A stretch of 64,000 bases of DNA from Halomarina pelagica. Its GTDB lineage: Archaea > Halobacteriota > Halobacteria > Halobacteriales > Haloarculaceae. The position numbers and the translations under genes are program-made. Location of the stretch: the NCBI RefSeq assembly GCF_024228315.1, contig NZ_CP100454.1, positions 1,054,001 through 1,118,000 on the forward strand. The letters are read 5' to 3'. Position 1 is the first letter of the stretch. Each line of letters begins with the position of its first letter. Positions 13,840-63,805 of the stretch are shown piece after piece. The notes beneath the pieces were generated by a model that had not been told where the DNA came from, did no database searches, and worked only from the letters and a program-made list of their open reading frames with translations.

Positions 13840-16800
13840 TCACCCCTCCTCGCGGACGCACGGCGCGATCGCCTCGCGTTCGGCGATCGCCTCCGACGCG
13901 TCGAGGCCGTTGCGCTCGGCCAGCGTGATCGCCTCCTCGCACTGGGCGAGCGCCTCTGGCGCGTCGCCGAGTTCGGCGAGTGCGTCGGCGAGGTGGAGGT
14001 GGGTATCGACGACGTCCGGAACCGCGCCGATGGCGGTGAACGCGGCGAGGGCCGCCTCGTGGCGCTCGCGGGCGACCTCGTGCTCGCCGCGGGCGGCAGC
14101 GAGCAGTCCCAGTTCGACGAGCGTCCGGGCCTCGCCGTACCGGTGGCCGCCGTCGCGACACCGCGCGAGGCTCGCCCGGAGGCGCTCGCGGGCGGTCTCG
14201 AACGCGCCGCGCTCGCGGGCGAGCCGACCCAGCAGGCGGAGGGCCTCCGCCTCGCCGCGGACCTCGCCGCTCTCGCGGTAGCGCGCGAGGCCGCGCTCGG
14301 CGTACTCGGTCGCGGCTTCGTCGTCCCCCCGGCGGTGGGCGACCCGGCCGAGGTTGACGAGGCTCTGGGCCTCGCCGATGCCGTCGCCGATGTCGCGGCG
14401 GTGTTCCAGACTCCGCCGGTAGCGCGACTCGGCGGACGAGAGGTCGCCGCGCCGCCGGTCCACGTCGCCGAGTTTGTTCAGGCAGTGGGCGATCCCCTGC
14501 GTGTCGCCGACGTCGCGGTAGGCGTCTAGCCCGCGCTCGTGGTACTCGACGCTCGCGTCGAACTCGCCGCGGAGCTGGGCGACGTGGCCCAGGTTGTGCA
14601 GGCAGTTGGCCTCCCCGAGTCGGTCGCCGATGTCGCGGTACGTGTCGAGCGCCTGCGTGAGGGAGCGTTCCGAGGCGTCGAGGTCGCCGCGCGTCCGCCA
14701 GAGGTTCCCCAGGTTGTTCAGCGTGTCCGCCTCCGTCCGTCGGTCGCCGGCGGCGCGGTAGTGATCGAGGCAGGACCGGTAGTGGTCGACGGCGGACGCG
14801 AGGTCGCCCAGCGAGTCGAGGATGGTGGCGAGGTTGAACTGCGCGTCCGCCTCCGCGCGGCGGTCGTCCATTGCGCGGTAGCGCTCCAGGCAGTCCCGGA
14901 GGTACGCCTCGGCCACGTCGAGGTCGCCGCGCGACCACGCGACGATGCCGAGGTTGTTTGTCACGTCGGCCTCGCCCTGCTCGTCGCCCGCCGCGCGGTA
15001 GGCGGCCAGGCTCCGCTCGTAGAACGACTCGGCGTCGTCGAACTCGCTGCGCCGGAGCGCGACGGTCCCGCGAAACTTCAGGCTGCGGGCGTGGAGGATC
15101 GCCGCCTCGGCGTCGTCCGCGCCGTCGGCGAGCGAGGCGAGGTACTCGAACTCGCGCTCGGCGGCGTCGAGGCGGCCGGCGCGCAGCGACATCTCCCCCC
15201 GCCACTGCGTGCAGCGCACCGCCAGTTCGGGCGAGCACGCCGCCGGGAGGTCGATGCGCGAGTAGGCGCTCGACCCGTACAGCGGCGCGAGTCCCGGCCG
15301 CGAGAGGCCGAGTGCGAACACCCGCTCGACGGTCGCGTCCGCCCACTCGCCCGGATCGGCGGAGATCCCCCTGATCGCGGGTGCCGCGCCGTGGAACTCC
15401 CACTCGATGCGCGCCCGGCGCGTCTCGTCGTCGGCGAGCGACAGCAGGGCGGTCACGACGCGACCGAACCGGCGTTCCGCGGCGTGCTCTCCCTCCTGCT
15501 CGGTCAGGTGGCGGAGGAACAGCGCCGACCACGATTCGTGGACCGAGCGGTACGGCGCGTCTCCCCCGTCGTCGACGCGCCCGAAGATGACCCGTCCGTC
15601 CAGCAGGTCGAGCGCGTCGGCGACGGCGTCGTGATCGTCGTCCGCCGCGAGCGCGTGGACGAGGTCGGGAGAGACGCCCACGTCCGCGGCGTTGAGGAGG
15701 TTGACGAGCGTGCCGACGTCGAGCGCGCGGTCGCCCGCATCGCGGAGGCGGTCGTACGTCCGGCCGACGTCCTCGGTGAGCGTCGTCGGCGTCGCGCTCC
15801 CGTAGGAGGCGAGCGGGTCGACCGACAGCGCGAGGCGGTGGAGCACGACGAGCAGGTCGGCGGGGTCCCCGTCGTCGCCCCCGTCGAGGCCGTCGAGCAG
15901 GTCGTCTACCGCGAGGTCGACGCGCCGCCCCGTCGTCGCCTCGAAGTGCCGGACGAACCGCTCGCACTCGGTGGCGGTGAGACCGGGGATGCGGACGCGC
16001 TCGACCGCCTCGCTCCGGTAGTCGGCGACGCGCGCGTCCGGCGGGAGGGCGGAGGGGTCCTCCCACTCCCGCTCGCGCGCGTCCACGAGGAGCGACACCG
16101 AGGGGTCGTCGCGGTACTCGGCCAGCGCGCCGAAGACGGCGACCGCCTCCTCGCGGAGGGCGTCCTCGACGACCACGAGCGCGTGGCCGTCGGTCCCGTC
16201 CAGGTACGTGCGGAGCGCGCCGACCGAGGCGAACGCCTCACCGGTGCCGCGCTTGCGGTAGAGGACCGGGCCGTGACCCGCCTCGAACCAGCGGTGCGCG
16301 ACCGTCTTGCAGACGGTGCTCTTGCCCGAGCCCGGCGGGCCGACGAGCGCGCGGTCGCCGCCCGCCCGCAGGTCGTCGAGCAGGTCGTCCGCGAGGGAGC
16401 GCCGCTCGCCGTCGCGGACGTACGTCCGGTTCACCGCGTACCCCGCCGCCACCTCCGCGAGGTCGAGGCCGGTGCGCCAGCTCGTCGTCGGCGGGGCGGG
16501 CGAGCGGGCGGCGAAGTACTCGTCGGTGAGTTCGACGAACCCCTCGCGTTCGAGGACGCGGCGGTCCTCGCGCTCGTCGCCGCGCGTCGCGTCGCCGGGG
16601 GAGGCGGCGAGGCGACGCGTACCGGGGGCGAGCGAGCTGGCGGCGTCCGTGACGTCGGTCGCCGCCCCGCGGACGCGCTCGACGTAGCCCGTCGCCCAGT
16701 CGAGGGCGGCGTCGGCGTCGGTGCGGTAGACGCCGCTTCGCGCGCCGCCGTCGTAGGTGACGCAGACGGCCGCGCGGGTCCAGTCCCGTCGCTCCGCGAC

Positions 16801-56448: not shown

Positions 56449-56501
56449 GTTGTTTCGTCCCCGGGATCCCTCATCACCGATCGCTGATAAACTCCCGGCA
56501 G

Positions 56502-57611
56502 TCAGTCGCCGGCGTTCGCCTCCCCGCCCATCCCGCCTGCCCCGCCGGCCGTCTCGTGGCGCACCGACTCGCGCTCCACGCCCTCGAATCCGAGCACGAA
56601 GTCGGGGCCGAACGCCGACGCCGGCGTCTGAAAGCCGGGGGAGACGTCGCCGTCGAGCGCGTGCCGGGCCGACTCGACGGCGGTCCGCGCGGTCAGGTCG
56701 TAGGTGTCGGGCGTCCGCAGGCGGGCGGCGACGCGCTCCCCCTCGTCGTCCTCGACCTCGCCCCACACCCGCGCCACGCTCCGCGAGCGCTCCGCCGCGG
56801 TCGGGCCGGACACCGTCGCGTCGACCAGGCGCTTCAGGGTGCACTGGACGGGTTTCATGCCGAGCATGGGGGCGAGCATCCCGGTCCACCGGATCCCGCC
56901 GACGGCGAACGGGGGAACCGTGGCGTACACCTCGACGTTCGGGATCCCGGTCGCGTAGTAGGCCGTCGAAACGTCGCCCCAGGGGACGGTGACGGCCGGC
57001 TTCGGTCCCTCCCCGAAGTCGATCCGTCGGGTCTTCCACGCGGCCGGGACGGTTCGGACCTCGCCGCCCTCGCGCACCGCGCCGGGTCTCGACAGTCCCT
57101 CGACGATCGACTTCAGGGTGCCCGGGGAGTACGTCTCGAGGCCGTCGATCGCCAGCGCGAGGCGGGTCGCCGACGGCAACTCGGCTTCGAGGAACGCCGC
57201 CAGACAGTCCGTCGGTACCACGTCGAACCCCACCGCGGGGAGCAGGGTCACGCCCGCCCGCTCGGCCTCCCTGTCCCGCTCGGCGACGGCCTCGAGCACG
57301 TCGATCTCGCCGGCGATGTCGAGGTAGTCCGTCCCGGTCTCCAGACACGCCTCGACCAGCGGCGTCGCGGTCGCGGAGAACGGGCCGGCGCAGTTCAACA
57401 CCGCGGCGGCGTCCCCGACCTGCGCCTCGACGACGTTCGGGTGTTCCAGGCTGAACACGCGATGGTCGAGTCCGAGCGTCGTCGCCTGCCGTTCGAGCGA
57501 CTCCGCGCGCCGCCCGGCGAGCACCGGTGACAACCCCCGGTCGACGGCGGCCTCCGCGATCAGCGATCCGGTGTACCCGTACGACCCGTAGATGAGCAAC
57601 TCCTCGTCCAT
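56502..57611 (-). CDS. Saccharopine dehydrogenase-like NAD(P)-binding protein (369 aa)
   Basis: Rossmann start LLIYGSYGYTGSLIAEAAVDRGL, then VAAVLNCAGPFSATATPLVEACL-type text (here AAAVLNCAGPFSATATPLV). Then YLDIAGEIDVLEAVAERDREAERAGV and PAVGFDVVPTDC, the pattern of saccharopine dehydrogenase-like oxidoreductases that include trans-acting enoyl reductases. Substrate unknown. The ATG at 57611 is used; the nine codons upstream are not conserved. Upstream starts the tRNA-Pro repeat array. Confidence 0.82.
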   Translation of the reverse strand: MDEELLIYGSYGYTGSLIAEAAVDRGLSPVLAGRRAESLERQATTLGLDHRVFSLEHPNVVEAQVGDAAAVLNCAGPFSATATPLVEACLETGTDYLDIAGEIDVLEAVAERDREAERAGVTLLPAVGFDVVPTDCLAAFLEAELPSATRLALAIDGLETYSPGTLKSIVEGLSRPGAVREGGEVRTVPAAWKTRRIDFGEGPKPAVTVPWGDVSTAYYATGIPNVEVYATVPPFAVGGIRWTGMLAPMLGMKPVQCTLKRLVDATVSGPTAAERSRSVARVWGEVEDDEGERVAARLRTPDTYDLTARTAVESARHALDGDVSPGFQTPASAFGPDFVLGFEGVERESVRHETAGGAGGMGGEANAGD

Positions 57612-57674
57612 GCGTTCGCGTTGTCCCGTGACGGACAAAACTCCCGGGGCTGCGGAGTTCGAGTGCGGGAGAAG

Positions 57675-57854
57675 TGGGCCGGCGCAGATTTTGAACTCGC
57701 CGAGACGTTCCGGGCGTGCGGCGCTTCGCGCCGTTCCGGGCTGCGACTCGTCTGCTCAAATCCGTTTGGCGTCTCTTCTCCCCGCATCACAGACGCCTCG
57801 CTGTCGCTCGGCGTTGCGAGATGCGGGAGAAGTGGGCCGGCACAGATTTTGAAC
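57675..57854 (-). repeat. Hairpin-forming unit bordered by tRNA-Pro 3' ends, copy 1
   Basis: Two copies of the last 22 bases of tRNA-Pro (57675-57696 and 57833-57854) border about 135 bases of non-coding DNA. The interior contains inverted repeats: CTTCTCC-CGCAT against ATGCGGGAGAAG, and CAAATC against a GATTTTG arm. A homologous unit lies at 59041-59216. This unit occupies most of the spacer before the small gene pair. Confidence 0.7.
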
Positions 57855-57906
57855 GACGAACGACGGGCCTCCCGAACGTATCTGTCGTCTGATGCGGACG
57901 GTGGGG

Positions 57907-58356
57907 CTACACCCAGAACGCCCGAATGCGCTCGTCCAGGGTCTCTAACACCTCGGACAGCACGTCGCGCCAGTCGCGCGGATGCTCCGCATCCCGTCCC
58001 GGCGTCTCCGCGTCCGGCGGCGGGTGGAAGTGTTCCCTCGCGTCGTGTTCGTTCGGGTGGCGGTCCCAGCGACACTCCCAGCTCGACCCGTCTCTGCACT
58101 GTTCCGAATAGTGCACGTTGAAATCGTCGGTGTCGTACCACCTGATCCGCAGGTACGCCCGCTCGACGCGCGATGGGAAATACCCCACGTCGTACTCGGC
58201 GACGACCGAGTCGGGCGCGTACTCCGGCCGCAGCGTAACGTCCGTGAATCGACGAGTTCCGGCGAGGCGCTGGCCGATTCGCTCCAGGACGTCGTAGTCT
58301 ATCGCCCCGACTGCCCCATCCGCGTCGTCGGAGTCGAACGGTTCACCGCTAGGCAT
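57907..58356 (-). CDS. Unknown protein, putative partner of an HTH antitoxin-like gene (149 aa)
   Basis: A soluble acidic protein with TDVTLRPEYAPDSVVAEYDVGYFPSRVERAYLRIRWY and a His-rich CRWDRHPNEHDAREHFHPPPDA. The overall plan (a strand-rich first half, a Cys/His-rich middle, a helical end) is reminiscent of TumE-type proteins, but it is not clearly one of them. Its start overlaps the stop of the HTH gene by eight bases. With that partner it occupies a 1.2-kb segment between two copies of a tRNA-Pro 3' end, so it looks like toxin-antitoxin-type cargo. The toxin role is inferred. Confidence 0.6.
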   Translation of the reverse strand: MPSGEPFDSDDADGAVGAIDYDVLERIGQRLAGTRRFTDVTLRPEYAPDSVVAEYDVGYFPSRVERAYLRIRWYDTDDFNVHYSEQCRDGSSWECRWDRHPNEHDAREHFHPPPDAETPGRDAEHPRDWRDVLSEVLETLDERIRAFWV

Positions 58357-58915
58357 CTACTCGCCCGACGTCGCCGCTCGCGAGGTCCCCGCTACGACGT
58401 GCCGCGTCCAGCAGGTCCGCGCGCCGCTCCATCGTCTGCCACTCGCTCAGCGCTTCCCACGCCTCCTCGAGCGGACGCTCGCGGCTCGCCGCCACGAGCG
58501 ATACCTCGTCAGGGTGATCGGCGTCGAATCGCGCTCGGTACTCCTCAAGTCCATCTACCGTACTCTTGAGCTTCTCGACGATCTCTGACTCCGAATATCG
58601 CGACCGGATTCGCTCGATCTGCCGCCATCGCAGGTACGACTCGTTTCGATCGTACCTGACGGGTCGCCCCGCGTGCTCCCGTACGATCCCCATCTCCGCG
58701 AACCACACGAGGTAATCGCGCGCGGTTTCGGTGTCGCACCCTGCCCGGTTCGCTATCTCGGATACCTTCGTCGGCTCGCGCAACTGCAGTATCACGTCGA
58801 GCATACGCTCCCGGGTGGAACCCCCCTTCAGAACCTCATCGGGTGCGTCCCACTCGTCGAAGTCGGGGGGTTCGTCGCCGGTATCGCGGACGTTCGGGGT
58901 GTCGGTCGGATCCAT
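58349..58915 (-). CDS. HTH (ArsR-type) regulator, probable antitoxin-like partner (188 aa)
   Basis: Winged helix at about residues 35-100: ERMLDVILQLREPTKVSEIANRAGCDTETARDYLVWFAEMGIVREHAGRPVRYDRNESYLRWRQIER, a pattern of haloarchaeal HTH proteins often next to a His-rich partner gene. A helical C-terminal domain follows. The ATG at 58915 gives the acidic start MDPTDTPNVRDTGDEP; the frame further upstream runs through repeat DNA and is rejected. It overlaps the partner gene and probably represses the pair. Confidence 0.7.
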   Translation of the reverse strand: MDPTDTPNVRDTGDEPPDFDEWDAPDEVLKGGSTRERMLDVILQLREPTKVSEIANRAGCDTETARDYLVWFAEMGIVREHAGRPVRYDRNESYLRWRQIERIRSRYSESEIVEKLKSTVDGLEEYRARFDADHPDEVSLVAASRERPLEEAWEALSEWQTMERRADLLDAARRSGDLASGDVGRVDA

Positions 58916-59040
58916 CGTCGGTCGCCTCTCTACGTGTGTATTCAGGGCTGTCGGTGATATGTCTATCGTACGCTGGAATAATTCAGTGGCGGTGGGCCTA
59001 GGGAGTTGGCGTGAATCGGGTCGGGAAAGCGACGGACGGC
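58916..59040. other. Spacer upstream of the small HTH gene
   Basis: No gene is seen. It holds the promoter of the HTH gene pair, with AT-rich TGTATTCAGG and TATGTCTATC elements about 25-55 bases before the start. Confidence 0.35.
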
Positions 59041-59216
59041 AGGGACCGGCGCAGATTTGCACTCGTCGAGACGATCCGGGTCGCTCACTTCGTTTGCTCC
59101 AGGATGCGACTCGTCTGCTCGAATCTGCTTTGCGTCTCTTCTCCACGCATCACGGATGCCTCGCTGGCGCTCGGCATTGCGAGATGCGGGAGAAGTGGGC
59201 CGGCGCAGATTTGAAC
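59041..59216 (-). repeat. Hairpin-forming unit bordered by tRNA-Pro 3' ends, copy 2
   Basis: Bordered by 22-base tRNA-Pro 3'-end copies at 59041-59062 (two or three mismatches) and 59196-59216 (exact). The interior is clearly homologous to copy 1 (shared CGACTCGTCTGCTC, GCGTCTCTTCTCC, GAGATGCGGGAGAAG). Together with copy 1 it flanks the gene pair as direct repeats. Confidence 0.7.
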
Positions 59217-59323
59217 CACGGTCGCTCACTCCGTTCGCTCCCTGATTCAAATCTGCTTGGTACACATTTCACACCCACTACGGACGACTCGCTATCGCTC
59301 GTCGTTGCGAAGTGGGGTGAAAA
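59217..59323 (-). repeat. Diverged third hairpin unit next to tRNA-Pro
   Basis: Between the exact 3'-end copy at 59196-59216 and the tRNA itself. TTCAAATCTGC pairs with GCAGATTTGAA of the tRNA T-arm, and CACCCAC pairs with GTGGGGTG, so a long hairpin is possible downstream of the tRNA 3' end. The interior is less similar to units 1 and 2. It may act as the tRNA terminator. Confidence 0.55.
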
Positions 59324-59396
59324 TGGGCCGGCGCAGATTTGAACTGCGGTTACGGCCACCCGAAGGCCGAAGGATACCAAGCTACCCCACCGGCCC
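59324..59396 (-). tRNA. tRNA-Pro (anticodon CGG)
   Basis: A 73-base cloverleaf: acceptor GGGCCGG pairs with CCGGCCC; anticodon stem CGGCC/GGCCG with loop TTCGGGT giving anticodon CGG (codon CCG); T-arm CGCAG-TTCAAAT-CTGCG. Discriminator base A, no encoded CCA and no intron. Its 3' end is repeated four more times downstream (57675, 57833, 59041, 59196). The site is probably an integration target. Confidence 0.92.
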
Positions 59397-59512
59397 GCAG
59401 GTGAACCGAGGGCCAGGGCAGTGTTAATCCTTCCGTCTTCGCACCGATACCGCGACGCTGTGGCACGCTACTTGACGACGGTCCCTCGACCGCGCCGGTC
59501 CGCCCCGCGGAC

Positions 59513-60109
59513 TCAGTACCGCCCGTACCCCTCGGTGTCGAGGTAGTTGTGCGCCACGGTGATGGCGTGGTCGGCGTGCAGGCGCTTCGGGCCGAGTCGC
59601 ACCCGCGCCGCCGCGGTCTCGGCGAGTAGGGCGGCCTCCCCCTCGGCGAAGTCGCGGTGGTCGGAGAGGACGAAGACGGGATCCTCGGGGGGGTCGACGT
59701 CCACGACGGGGTCGCCCTCCTCGTGGAGTTCGACGACGGTCCCCTCGCGCGCGGCGTCGTCGAGCGTCGCCTCGAACCCCTTCCGCGAGAGGTAGACCCC
59801 GGGGGAGGTCTCGGCCTCCACGTGCCCGATCGCCTCGTCCCGCCGTTCGAGGGCCTTCCTGACGAGCGCCGCCGTCGACCGCTCGTCGGGGTTCAGGCGG
59901 CGGAGTTCGCTCCCCTCGAAGCGCAGCGTGAACTCGTCGCGGAGGACGAGTCGACAGCGCGCGTCCTCGCGGATCGCGTGCGAGAGGAAGAACGTCGCGT
60001 TCACGCACCGACAGAGCACGTCGAGCCGTCCCGCCCCGCCCGCGAGGTCGTCGAGCGAGAAGTCGGGGCCGGTAGGCGCGTCGTGACCGACGACGATGAA
60101 CTGGCGCAT
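59513..60109 (-). CDS. trmY: tRNA pseudouridine-54 N1-methyltransferase TrmY (198 aa)
   Basis: SPOUT methyltransferase that makes N1-methylpseudouridine at position 54 of archaeal tRNA. Family start [13 protein letters not shown], then [36 protein letters not shown] and [20 protein letters not shown] at the C-terminus, the knot region. Divergent from the STT3-like gene. Length is right for the family. Confidence 0.95.
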
Positions 60110-60234
60110 ACGCCCCCGCGGTCGCCCGCCGGCATACGTCCGTCGCTCCGCGGCGTTCCGATCCGCGCCGGGAGGACCCGCGCCGGACTCCCTCGAAACA
60201 ATCGATACCGTACCAGTCCGAATACCGAACGGTA

Positions 60235-60243
60235 CGTTTATCC
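60235..60243 (+). promoter_or_regulatory. TATA box before the STT3/AglB-like gene
   Basis: CGTTTATCC lies about 25-32 bases before the ATG at 60267, standard for a leaderless haloarchaeal transcript. Confidence 0.5.
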
Positions 60244-60266
60244 TTCATTCGGGACAGCGTCGAGCA

Positions 60267-62621
60267 ATGACCGACGCCCGGGCCGCGGCCGACCTCCTGC
60301 GGGAGCGACCGGACCTCGAACCGGCGGTCCGCGCCGCGCTCGCCGTCGACGCCGACCGCGAGCGCGAGCCGTGGACGTTCGAGGACGTCGCCGTCGACTC
60401 GGGGGCGTTCGGCGAACTCGTCGCGCGCGGCGTCGTCGAGCGCCACGGTGGAGGGTATCGGATCGCCGCCCCCGACGCGGTCCGCGCGGCCCTCGACGGC
60501 GACGCGGTCGAGTCGACGGCCGCCCTCGGTGTATCGGCGTCGCCGGTCGCGTCCCACCCGTTCGCCGACGTGGACGCGACCGAGATCCTCGCCCTCGCGG
60601 GGACGCTCGCGTTCCTCGCGCTCTTCCGTCTCGTCTCGCTCCCGTCGGTGTTCCGCGAGCGGATCGTCCTCTCGGGGAACGACCCGTACTACTACCGCTA
60701 CTGGACCGAGCGGTTGCTCGCGCAGGCGGGCGGCGCGCTCGACCCCTCGGTCCTCTCTGCGCTCCCGCCCGCCGTCGCGAGGGGCGAGCCGCTGCTCGTC
60801 GCCGCGCTCTGGCTGGCGAGCGCGCTCGCCGGCGGCGCGTCGGGGGTCGTCCTCGCCGTCTACCCCGTCGTCGCGGCCGTCCTGACCGGGCTGTTCACGT
60901 ACCTGCTGGCCCGCCGCGCGAGCGACGACCGCCGCGTCGCGCTCGCGGCGGTCGCCCTGTTGGCGGTCGTCCCGGCCCACGCGCTCCGGACCGGACTCGG
61001 CTTCGCGGACCACCACGCGTTCGACTACGTGTGGCTCGCGCTCACCGCGTGGGCGCTCGTCGCGCTGCTCGATCGGGACTCCCGGGGATCCGCGGTCGAC
61101 CGGTCGACCGTCGTCGCCGCCGTCGCGCTCGGCGTCGGCGTCGCCGGGCAGACCCTCGCGTGGGACAACGGCCCCGCCCTGCTCGTCCCGCTCGGCCTCG
61201 CGGTCGCTCTCGCGGCCCCGGTCGCCGTCCGCGAGGGCCGCTCGCCCGTCGCGCTGGGCGCGCCCGTCGTCGCCGGACTCGCGCTCGCGGCCGCCCTCTC
61301 GCACTTCGCGCACGTCGGACTCGGCTGGCACACGGACACGGTCGCGTACGCGCCGTCGCTCCTCCTCGCGGGCGTCGTCGTCGCGCTCGCCGTCGGGGAG
61401 GCGTTCGCGCGCCTCGCGCCGTCGGTTTCGACCCTTCCCCTCCCGATCGCGCCGGCCGTCCTCGGGGTCGAGGTCGTCGGGGTCGCCGCCGGCGTCCTCG
61501 CCGTCCGGTCGCGCTTCCCCGAGTTCTGGTCGGACCTTGGACGCGGCCTCGACACGCTGTTCGCGGAGCGGGCCATCGCGGAGGTGCAGTCGCTGTTCGC
61601 CTCGGGGTCGGCCGGCTGGCTCCTGCTGTTCGGGTTCGCGCTCGTGCTCGCGCTCCCCTACCTCGCGTGGGGGCTGTGGCGCGGGTGGCGCGGGGCGCTC
61701 GGGTGGCTCGTCGTCGGGACGTACGGCGGGTACTTCCTCGCGCTCGCCGCCGTCCAGACGCGCTTTGCGGGCGAACTCTCCCCGTTCGTCGCCGTCTTCG
61801 CCGGACTCGGGTTCGTCCACCTCGCCGAGCGCGTCGACCTCGCGGCGCGACCGGTCCCCCTCCGCGACCCGCCGGAGCGGACCGACGACGGCCGGCCGTC
61901 GCTGCGCCTCCCCGATCGGCGGCGACTCGGCGCGCTCGCGCTCCTCTTCCTGCTCGTCGGCGGCCTCGGGATGATCCAGGTGCCCGTGAAGACCTCGCTC
62001 GTCACCGTCCCCGAGGGGCAGTACCGGACCGCGACGGCCATCGACGCCCACGCCGAGGAGCGAGGGCTGTCGTATCCCGAGAGCTACGTCCTCTCGGAGT
62101 GGGGGCGAAACCGCGTCTACAACTACTTCGTCGGCGGCGAGGCGGCCTCCTACGGCTACGCGCGGGCGAACTACGACGCCTTCGTCGAGTCGACGACCCC
62201 CGACCCGTGGTACGAGCGGTTCCGCGGGCGCGTGGGCTACGTCGTGGTCGGTGCCGACGACGCGCGCTTCTCGAACGCGATCGGCGCGCGCCTGCACGAC
62301 CGCTACGGGAGTCGGGGGGACGGCGTCGCCGGCCTCGCCCACTACCGGGCGATCTACGCCAGCCCCGACGGGGAGTACGTCGCGTTTGCCGTGGTGCCCG
62401 GCGCGACCGTCGTCGGCCCGGCGTCGGGCGAGTCGGTGGCGGTCGAGACGGGCGTCGAGATCGACGGCGCGTCCTTCGCCTACGAGCGGCGCGCTACGGT
62501 CGAGGACGGGACGGTCCGCGTGACGGTGGCCTACCCGGGGACCTACTCGGTCGGCGGCGAGACGGTGTACGTCTCGGAGGCGGCGATCGAGGAGGGGCGG
62601 ACCGTGCGCGTCGGCGGGTGA
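60267..62621 (+). CDS. STT3/AglB-like membrane protein with N-terminal helix-turn-helix-like region (784 aa)
   Basis: About 100 soluble residues start the protein (EDVAVDSGAFGELVARGVVERHGGGYRIA looks like the tail of a winged helix). Eleven or more helices follow (about 105-590), then a soluble C-terminal domain. STT3/AglB traits are GNDPYYYRYWTERLL (N138-D139, the DXD-like first loop) and LGFADHHAFDYVWLAL near 247. At the catalytic WWDYG position the aligned segment (about 605-620) reads VLSEWGRNRVYNYF, without W-W-D. It may be an inactive or substrate-shifted oligosaccharyltransferase relative. The start at 60267 follows a TATA box. Confidence 0.75.
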   Translation: MTDARAAADLLRERPDLEPAVRAALAVDADREREPWTFEDVAVDSGAFGELVARGVVERHGGGYRIAAPDAVRAALDGDAVESTAALGVSASPVASHPFADVDATEILALAGTLAFLALFRLVSLPSVFRERIVLSGNDPYYYRYWTERLLAQAGGALDPSVLSALPPAVARGEPLLVAALWLASALAGGASGVVLAVYPVVAAVLTGLFTYLLARRASDDRRVALAAVALLAVVPAHALRTGLGFADHHAFDYVWLALTAWALVALLDRDSRGSAVDRSTVVAAVALGVGVAGQTLAWDNGPALLVPLGLAVALAAPVAVREGRSPVALGAPVVAGLALAAALSHFAHVGLGWHTDTVAYAPSLLLAGVVVALAVGEAFARLAPSVSTLPLPIAPAVLGVEVVGVAAGVLAVRSRFPEFWSDLGRGLDTLFAERAIAEVQSLFASGSAGWLLLFGFALVLALPYLAWGLWRGWRGALGWLVVGTYGGYFLALAAVQTRFAGELSPFVAVFAGLGFVHLAERVDLAARPVPLRDPPERTDDGRPSLRLPDRRRLGALALLFLLVGGLGMIQVPVKTSLVTVPEGQYRTATAIDAHAEERGLSYPESYVLSEWGRNRVYNYFVGGEAASYGYARANYDAFVESTTPDPWYERFRGRVGYVVVGADDARFSNAIGARLHDRYGSRGDGVAGLAHYRAIYASPDGEYVAFAVVPGATVVGPASGESVAVETGVEIDGASFAYERRATVEDGTVRVTVAYPGTYSVGGETVYVSEAAIEEGRTVRVGG

Positions 62622-63052: not shown

Positions 63053-63487
63053 TCACGCCCGATACGGATTCGTCGGGGTCGTCAGTCGACGGACGCCGTC
63101 GACGCTGTCGAAGCCGGTGTCGAACGAGTAGACGTACGGGAGGTCGCAGTCGCGAGCGACCGCAACGAGGAGCGCGTCGACCAGCGAGAGTTGGGCCTGC
63201 TCGCGATAGACCGAAACCCCTCGCTGCCACACCTGGCTCGTCGTTCGATTGAGATGGACACCGGTGCTCTCCTCGAGCATCGACAGCGCTCGTACTGCGT
63301 CGTCGTGTGGTACCTGCCGCGTGAGCGCGTTCATCACCTCCGCGAGGACGAAATCGATCACGACGAGCGTCGGGAGGTCGCCGCGGTCGGCGGCACGCAC
63401 GACGGCGAGACCCTCCTCGTGGAACTGATCGCGACGGCGGAACGCCCCGTACACGACGTTCGTGTCGACGAGCGCGCGCTGTGTCAC
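63053..63487 (-). CDS. vapC: PIN-domain toxin, VapC family (144 aa)
   Basis: PIN domain beginning RALVDTNVVYGAFRRRDQFH; acidic positions D8 (VDTN), E in LAEVMNALT, D in LSLVDALLVAVA, and D in SFDTGFDSV. It begins next to the stop of its AbrB-type antitoxin gene (63488). Probably a ribonuclease. Confidence 0.85.
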   Translation of the reverse strand: MTQRALVDTNVVYGAFRRRDQFHEEGLAVVRAADRGDLPTLVVIDFVLAEVMNALTRQVPHDDAVRALSMLEESTGVHLNRTTSQVWQRGVSVYREQAQLSLVDALLVAVARDCDLPYVYSFDTGFDSVDGVRRLTTPTNPYRA

Positions 63488-63805
63488 CTACCGATTCCCC
63501 GCTTCGTCGGCGTTCGGTTCTTCGTCGCGCGGCGACGCGTCGAGTTCGCCGGCGGGTTCGACGCCCACCGCGTCGTGGTCGGTAGCGTCGTTACGTCCCT
63601 CGAATCCGTCGAAGTCCTCGAAGACGCCCGACCGTCTGCGGATGACCTCGACGCTCAGTTCGCCCCCCTTCCAGCGCCAGCGAAGGCTGTCCCCGTCCTC
63701 GATGTCAGCGCGCTCGCGAACGTGCGCGGGGATCGAGGCCTGGTTTCCCGAGACGGCCCCCTCCCCGAGGAGTTCGTCGTTCTCGGCCTCGGCGTCGCTA
63801 CTCAT
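63488..63805 (-). CDS. vapB: AbrB-type antitoxin, VapB family (105 aa)
   Basis: SGNQASIPAHVRERADIEDGDSLRWRWKGGELSVEVI is a SpoVT/AbrB-like DNA-binding fold after an acidic N-terminus; a disordered acidic tail should bind the toxin. Second VapBC pair in the window. An AGGAGGTG-like sequence lies 13 bases before its ATG and a TATA-like GTTTATC a little further up. Confidence 0.82.
   Translation of the reverse strand: MSSDAEAENDELLGEGAVSGNQASIPAHVRERADIEDGDSLRWRWKGGELSVEVIRRRSGVFEDFDGFEGRNDATDHDAVGVEPAGELDASPRDEEPNADEAGNR

Follow-up and report, generated by a model that had tools for sequence, protein, structure and literature searches.

The array behind tRNA-Pro(CGG)

The window, a stretch of 64,000 nucleotides of Halomarina pelagica (contig NZ_CP100454.1, positions 1,054,001 to 1,118,000 of the forward strand), holds a tRNA-Pro(CGG) gene that is followed by four further copies of its own 3' end and by two overlapping genes. 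Read in the orientation of the tRNA, the gene is succeeded by unit A and then unit B, each followed by a tail, next by the two genes with a further tail, and finally by unit C, the last tail and the flank, where the tails are the copies of the tRNA 3' end and the units are the non-coding pieces between them. The coordinates are given in Table 1.

Table 1. Parts of the tRNA-Pro(CGG) array in window coordinates and, in the last line, the larger insert at tRNA-Leu(tag) in its own coordinates (G000, this genome)
Feature	Position	Strand	Basis or remarks
tRNA-Pro(CGG), anchor of the array	59324-59396	-	ARAGORN; tRNA search over the family
Source of the tails, final ~20 nt of tRNA-Pro(CGG)	59324-59343	-	
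Unit A, hairpin H1	59267-59323	-	begins right at the tRNA end; fold z -2.73
Unit A, hairpin H2	59205-59256	-	inverted T-arm GCAGATTTGAA, class I core TCAGGGAG...CGACCGTGG, T-arm TTCAAATCTGC
Tail copy 2	59196-59217	-	exact match to the tRNA 3' end
Unit B, hairpin H1	59138-59195	-	fold z -3.71 (whole unit B)
Unit B, hairpin H2	59051-59128	-	class III core, inverted T-arm GCAGATTCGA
Tail copy 3	59042-59063	-	degenerate, 3/19 mismatches
Winged-HTH DUF7342 protein, putative antitoxin or regulator	58349-58915	-	PF24033, E 6e-26; ATG at 58915
His-rich TumE-like protein, 149 aa, putative toxin	57907-58356	-	8-nt overlap with the HTH gene
Tail copy 4	57833-57854	-	degenerate, 3/19 mismatches
Unit C, hairpin H1	57775-57832	-	fold
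Unit C, hairpin H2	57685-57764	-	class III core; fold
Tail copy 5, last copy	57675-57696	-	2/19 mismatches
tRNA-Leu(tag) insert	L307:143-5100 (G000:C1 about 3309142-3314100)		holds a single unit, a large type IIG restriction-modification gene and a small ORF, in this order

The sequence-only reading had described the tRNA gene with its four downstream copies, and ARAGORN and repeat comparison agree with it. Its tail-to-tail intervals of 158, about 1208, 155 and 128 bases, counted from the outermost copy inwards, were recovered, as was its placing of an HTH gene and a His-rich partner in the long interval. It had also called the short intervals homologous and hairpin-forming, which holds: units B and C (59062-59196 and 57697-57832) are 81% identical, the third unit (A) about 60%, and the short intervals fold with z scores of -2.4 to -3.7. 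Two features had escaped that reading, namely an inverted T-arm copy in each unit and the recurrence of such units at most tRNA genes. Over the last 19 nt, the tails at 57675, 57833, 59042 and 59196 and the tRNA itself show 2, 3, 3, 0 and 0 mismatches, so that the only exact copy among the four extra tails is the one nearest the tRNA. In a chance control with the reversed tail, matches with at most 2 mismatches occurred near 0 of 227 tRNAs and those with at most 5 near 2%. No known RNA family in Rfam, rtT included, matched positions 56500-60500 at E values up to 1. Elsewhere in the window, ARAGORN called a tRNA-Gln at 14329-14423, a call that is probably false and is absent from the genome-wide Rfam tRNA search.

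A family of units at haloarchaeal tRNA genes

The existence of a tRNA-anchored family of units is well supported. In this genome, 39 units of 85-170 bp lie at 29 of the 45 tRNA genes; most units are complete and uniform in size. Genomes sampled alike, through their best-scoring tRNAs, showed an extra tail copy within 350 bp for 21/31, 14/31 and 10/29 tRNAs in three members of the order, and for 0/31 and 1/30 in two archaea outside it. A covariance model of hairpin H2 found matches in 38 of 40 genomes of the order, at least 5 to 24 per genome, and none in 157 other genomes of the phylum. At the 30 of these loci that were inspected, a tRNA was always close to the match, and recognised tail copies lay downstream of it in 27. 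One core type of H2 (class III) gave 47 matches among 84,980 bacterial and archaeal species, in haloarchaea only; 41 of them directly follow a tRNA of the same strand, these tRNAs representing 22 isoacceptors in many genera, and the distance from the tRNA is mostly 42-82 bp. A search of archaeal genomes for the unit at tRNA-Pro and other tRNAs had been proposed; units stand behind most isoacceptors. Units scattered away from tRNA genes, or arrays identical everywhere, had been named as grounds against integration; the class III matches and the 30 inspected loci show neither. The full sample of units was partly picked by similarity, and its frequencies are unbiased only for this genome, Halomarina halobia (G004) and the genome G026. 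In the last of these, one locus (L193) carries a tandem pair of tRNA-Asp genes, spaced about 100 bp, and behind the pair units with the tRNA-Asp tail.

Each unit consists of H1, an inverted copy of the local T-arm and more weakly of the acceptor strand, the H2 core, and the 3' end of the local tRNA copied in direct orientation. In every short interval of the array H1 begins directly at the tRNA 3' end, followed by the inverted T-arm, H2 and the direct copy, so that a locus reads X-H1-X'-core-X and onward, where X is the tRNA 3' end and X' its inverted copy. A few sequence classes cover the H2 cores: CAGGGAG...CGACCGTGG (class I), CCCTGGAAGTCGCAG...CGACCGTCTTCCTCCGG (class II), AGACGAGTCGCAG...GACCGTCTCGGCG (class III) and AGACCGAGGTTCTG...CAGGTTCTCGGGCG (class IV). 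The base pairs of H2 covary across 41 units, with double changes in 12 of 18 pairs and a score of 0.329 against 0.178±0.011 in shuffled alignments; the score was far lower in all slid versions. An origin of H1 by full inverted duplication of tail and flank was considered and rejected: flanks differ between units of one tRNA, and the H1 arms are therefore not simply copied flank. A T-rich stretch, which may end transcription, directly follows most tails.

The tRNA pieces are of local origin in both orientations. The direct copy in each unit is the 3' end of the adjacent tRNA. In the inverted copy, agreement with the adjacent tRNA reaches 2.49 of 4 for the T-stem bases beside the universal GATTYGAA, compared with 1.51±0.07 when tRNAs are shuffled; the complement of the acceptor strand gives a weaker signal (3.31 versus 3.01±0.06). 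The local inverted copy is clear at tRNA-Asn, which has an unusual T-arm. Because direct and inverted pieces both follow the adjacent tRNA, a single element with fixed ends is ruled out.

The structured strand is the tRNA-sense strand. A hairpin tip of the form GA-NN-GN(N)A-NN-GA is present in 128 of 183 distinct units; shuffling gives 1.25, and 1.7% of pieces drawn at random from the genome contain it. The GA-flanked tip lies on the tRNA-sense strand in 129 units, against 5 that have it on the opposite strand. Most tips are GNA triloops; among the tetraloops GNYA prevails and GNRA is depleted (6 of 34, p 0.0002 against one half). Tips of the type C(GNA)G are exceptionally stable in DNA, and RNA favours GNRA. 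Because GNA and GNYA tips are common and GNRA tips rare, we lean towards a folded DNA strand, a reading that draws on this general behaviour of GNA loops.

Turnover of the units and the genes among them

The number of units changes precisely from tail to tail, related cores stand behind unrelated tRNAs, and the freshest copies are nearest the tRNA. Among relatives, the orthologous tRNA-Pro carries 0 to 4 units. In Halomarina halobia the gene pair is absent and a single unit stands between flanks that match: the 600 bp upstream of the tRNA are 93% identical, and the orthologous flank resumes directly past the last tail (57675-57696). Because the flanks align on both sides, the difference of about 1.65 kb versus 0.17 kb lies exactly between tRNA ends. 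The earlier expectation that content would vary between relatives is thereby confirmed. Unit counts at other orthologous tRNAs also differ between the two Halomarina species, with 1 versus 0 at Arg(cct) and at Asn, 0 versus 2 at Glu(ctc), 2 versus 0 at Gly(gcc) and 0 versus 2 at Ser(tga); at Arg(cct) the old flank picks up again after the extra material. Loss as well as gain is likely, since some "empty" loci retain a decayed H1 or an inverted T-arm.

Among arrays with at least two copies, the first copy is closer to the tRNA sequence than the second in 31, the reverse holds in 1, and the two are equal in 24 (p 1.5e-8). A higher-order array lies behind the tRNA-Ser(tga) of locus L222 (genome G182), where tail spacings of 136/106/136/108 bp form an A-B-A-B pattern that suggests unequal exchange of two-unit blocks; at locus L052 an identical unit is repeated. 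Two tRNA-Val loci of Halomarina halobia (L159 and L162) carry the H2 core reversed from its usual orientation, with H1 and the T-arms unchanged in theirs. At Val(cac) the inversion is seen directly against the orthologous unit in this genome, and the surrounding H1 is clearly orthologous. Frequent core inversion was rejected, these two loci of one species being the only cases.

The two genes of the long interval form an operon with the toxin-like gene downstream. The Pfam match of the 149-aa protein to TumE is weak (E 0.033, 14.6 bits against a cut-off of 23.4), and 11 of its 13 homologues match TumE, the best at 8.5e-4. The pair is kept together as a unit: an ORF similar to the DUF7342 partner lies directly upstream in all 15 relatives inspected. 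The TumE-like protein has homologues in 186 of 243 genomes of the order, with up to 8 matches per genome, and belongs to a large, little-described haloarchaeal family. Its AlphaFold2 model is weak (pLDDT 64.5) and shows two helices and an antiparallel sheet; a PDB fold search with this model gave nothing significant, and neither gene of the pair matched NCBIfam. TumE-TumA is a validated translation-targeting toxin-antitoxin superfamily (PMC10584680). The pair resembles it in the order of a TumE-like gene downstream of an overlapping DNA-binding partner and in the predicted fold of helices and sheet, but differs in that the 149-aa protein falls below the Pfam cut-off and the DUF7342 partner is not a described TumA (PMC10584680). 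We read the two genes as a putative module of the toxin-antitoxin kind, separate from the units.

None of the 29 other loci of the gene pair holds tRNA units, so the pair is independent cargo; it was rejected as standard cargo of the units, and the "unnamed cassette type" that the sequence-only reading had offered for it falls away. At L137 (tRNA-Thr), where the pair is again linked to a tRNA, no tail copies surround it. The pair sits between the sister units B and C at two degenerate tails, the position expected if it was inserted at a tail of an existing array. In the insert at tRNA-Leu(tag), the restriction gene is bounded by the first tail copy on one side and on the other by a longer, partial copy of tRNA-Leu (about 50 nt); the insert has the appearance of a small piece of defence DNA inserted at a decoy tail. 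As a separate observation, a PIN-domain gene follows a small MazE/AbrB-like gene at 63053-63805 (- strand) of the window, a probable VapBC-type toxin-antitoxin pair.

Proposed origin and mobility of the units

Our preferred reading is that the array is one instance of a haloarchaea-specific non-coding family that is anchored at tRNA 3' ends and recombines at the T-arm, and we put its chances at about even. The T-arm would serve as the recombination site; it forms a short dyad about the 7-nt TTCRAAT, which is nearly universal. As this dyad is common to nearly all tRNAs, exchange between the T-loop sequences of different tRNA loci would spread the cores, and recombination between inverted T-arms could occasionally flip one. 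Tail-to-tail recombination beside the tRNA would add or remove units, which would then drift downstream and decay, the tRNA gene itself remaining intact throughout. A recombinase would probably act in trans on the folded single strand that the DNA-type hairpins present. None of the units has room for an integrase gene, no integrase or recombinase gene lies at the arrays, and the tyrosine recombinase genes of this genome are located elsewhere; nor was an excised or circular form observed. The HTH/TumE-like module would have been inserted at a downstream, decoy tail between units B and C. A recombinase alone is insufficient for the first origin of the local X'; template switching or selection for pairing is also needed. 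Taken furthest, the units might constitute a new class of mobile DNA: gene-less, using the T-arm as a universal recombination site, carrying the local tRNA end in both orientations, with cores moving among nearly all tRNA genes by strand-specific folded-DNA recombination and decoy sites collecting toxin-antitoxin and restriction genes. We regard this wider proposal as tentative and short of an even chance.

The main rival is a passive origin, in which template switching at hairpin-prone post-tRNA sequence yields X-loop-X'-loop-X and the 20-nt tails expand, contract and convert by homologous recombination, with neither a dedicated recombinase nor a function. It accommodates the locality of both copies and the arrays devoid of an enzyme gene, and the spacings at L222 and the repeated unit at L052 point to unequal exchange. 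Copy-number change and polarity could also be explained by ordinary homologous recombination acting on the 20-nt repeats, together with conversion templated by the tRNA. However, random template switching would not be expected to give a conserved core, and the same cores stand behind 22 isoacceptors in many genera; the fixed orientation (129 versus 5) and one special type of hairpin tip far above chance also speak against it. We consider a passive origin somewhat unlikely.

Compatible with the other explanations is the idea that the extra tails are decoy landing sites that divert tRNA-targeting integrases and at which defence and toxin-antitoxin cargo gathers. Both larger inserts of this genome, the TumE-like pair and the type IIG gene at tRNA-Leu(tag), are behind a unit and not at the tRNA, but these are two cases only, and integration normally restores the tRNA gene anyway, so that a benefit is not evident. 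We think such a role unlikely.

After the passive origin, the ranking of rivals continues with an RNA role and integrative remnants. If the units were functional structured RNAs or tRNA 3' trailers, acting in termination, processing or regulation, selection on RNA structure would account for the covarying pairs and for the structured strand being identical to the transcript. This reading is distinctly improbable: many orthologous tRNAs are unit-free in a sister species, GNRA loops are few, the T-rich stretch after most tails may end transcription, and the region in the window has no Rfam match.

The units could also be worn-down ends, attachment sites with arm regions, left by viruses or plasmids of the conventional tRNA-integrating kind that inserted repeatedly. 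The 3' ends of tRNA genes are classic targets of integration. Archaeal tyrosine recombinases serve tRNA-targeting integrative elements that duplicate part of the tRNA (PMC8371274), and a partial tRNA is reported to lie directly beside the full gene in Haloferax gibbonsii (PMC7921747). Such elements share with the units a tRNA 3' end that is directly repeated beside the gene, and the T-arm region as the likely crossover, whereas the units are about 100-160 bp long, gene-less and integrase-free, occur at most isoacceptors and each contain an inverted copy (PMC8371274, PMC7921747). Direct repeats of the tRNA 3' end flank the units on both sides, but neither an integrase gene nor a remnant of one lies between them. 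Clear distant tail copies were found at only 2 of 49 tRNA predictions (40 regions, up to 20 kb), the larger inserts with the gene pair or the restriction gene, and long integrative elements behind most tRNAs were rejected on this count. Phage, plasmid and viral collections held no match to the units and no unit-bearing free element, within a sensitivity limited by the short queries, and attachment regions of known viruses or plasmids were likewise rejected within that limit. With an inverted T-arm that follows the local tRNA and units that are mostly complete and uniform rather than decayed, this origin is very unlikely. Of the integration-site reading given earlier, one part that survives is that the 3' end of the tRNA is the seat of a unit with its own repetition; an integrative-element origin fits poorly, and "nested remains of small integrative elements" sit badly with integrase-free arrays, the lack of a trace in the phage, plasmid and viral collections, the rarity of distant tails and pieces that match the local tRNA.

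Among known systems, the nearest architectural precedent is, by analogy, probably the E. coli tyrT locus, where tandem, non-coding 178-bp repeats downstream of the gene (rtT RNA) each contain the last 19 nt of the tRNA. Both systems have tandem units behind a tRNA that contain its 3' end; the tyrT repeats are confined to one locus in one bacterium, and the array in the window has no rtT match. To our knowledge, the tyrT repeats have no inverted T-arm copy and no core shared behind other tRNAs. Integron arrays consist of folded attC hairpin sites whose structure is conserved over sequence and which are structured on one strand, with cassettes that normally carry genes. The units resemble attC sites in their hairpins, which likewise keep structure over sequence and are structured on one strand, and in the occasional toxin-antitoxin cargo, but they have no IntI, attC sites are not tRNA copies, and no integron-type integrase lies beside the array, the tyrosine recombinase genes of this genome being away from the arrays.

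MITEs, PATEs and SMRs of Haloquadratum are transposase-free repeats described as targeting mainly other mobile elements, and the mobilisation of SMRs is likewise unexplained (PMC3119063). The units share with them a short, non-coding, palindrome-rich and dispersed form in many copies per genome; they differ in their place at tRNA 3' ends, in carrying the local tRNA end both ways and in having no fixed terminal repeats (PMC3119063). In place of constant, target-independent termini, their outer sequence follows the adjacent tRNA, and in place of many kinds of site, 41 of the 47 class III matches lie directly downstream of tRNAs.

We found no description of the units in the open-access literature. 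As far as shown within that literature, the local direct-plus-inverted design and the order-wide spread are absent from the Haloferax gibbonsii, Haloquadratum and E. coli tyrT precedents, and the units apparently make up a family of non-coding elements that has not been described before.

When archaeal genomes contain partial tRNA copies, these are usually dismissed as virus scars. Those described here are parts of a structured family that is carried by up to two thirds of a genome's tRNA genes and spans one large archaeal order, and in haloarchaea tail repeats alone are no evidence of an integrated element. If recombination at the T-arm is true, the spread of short, gene-less DNA at tRNA genes would become testable, as would the standing of tRNA 3' ends as integration hot spots and the gathering of defence and toxin-antitoxin genes there.
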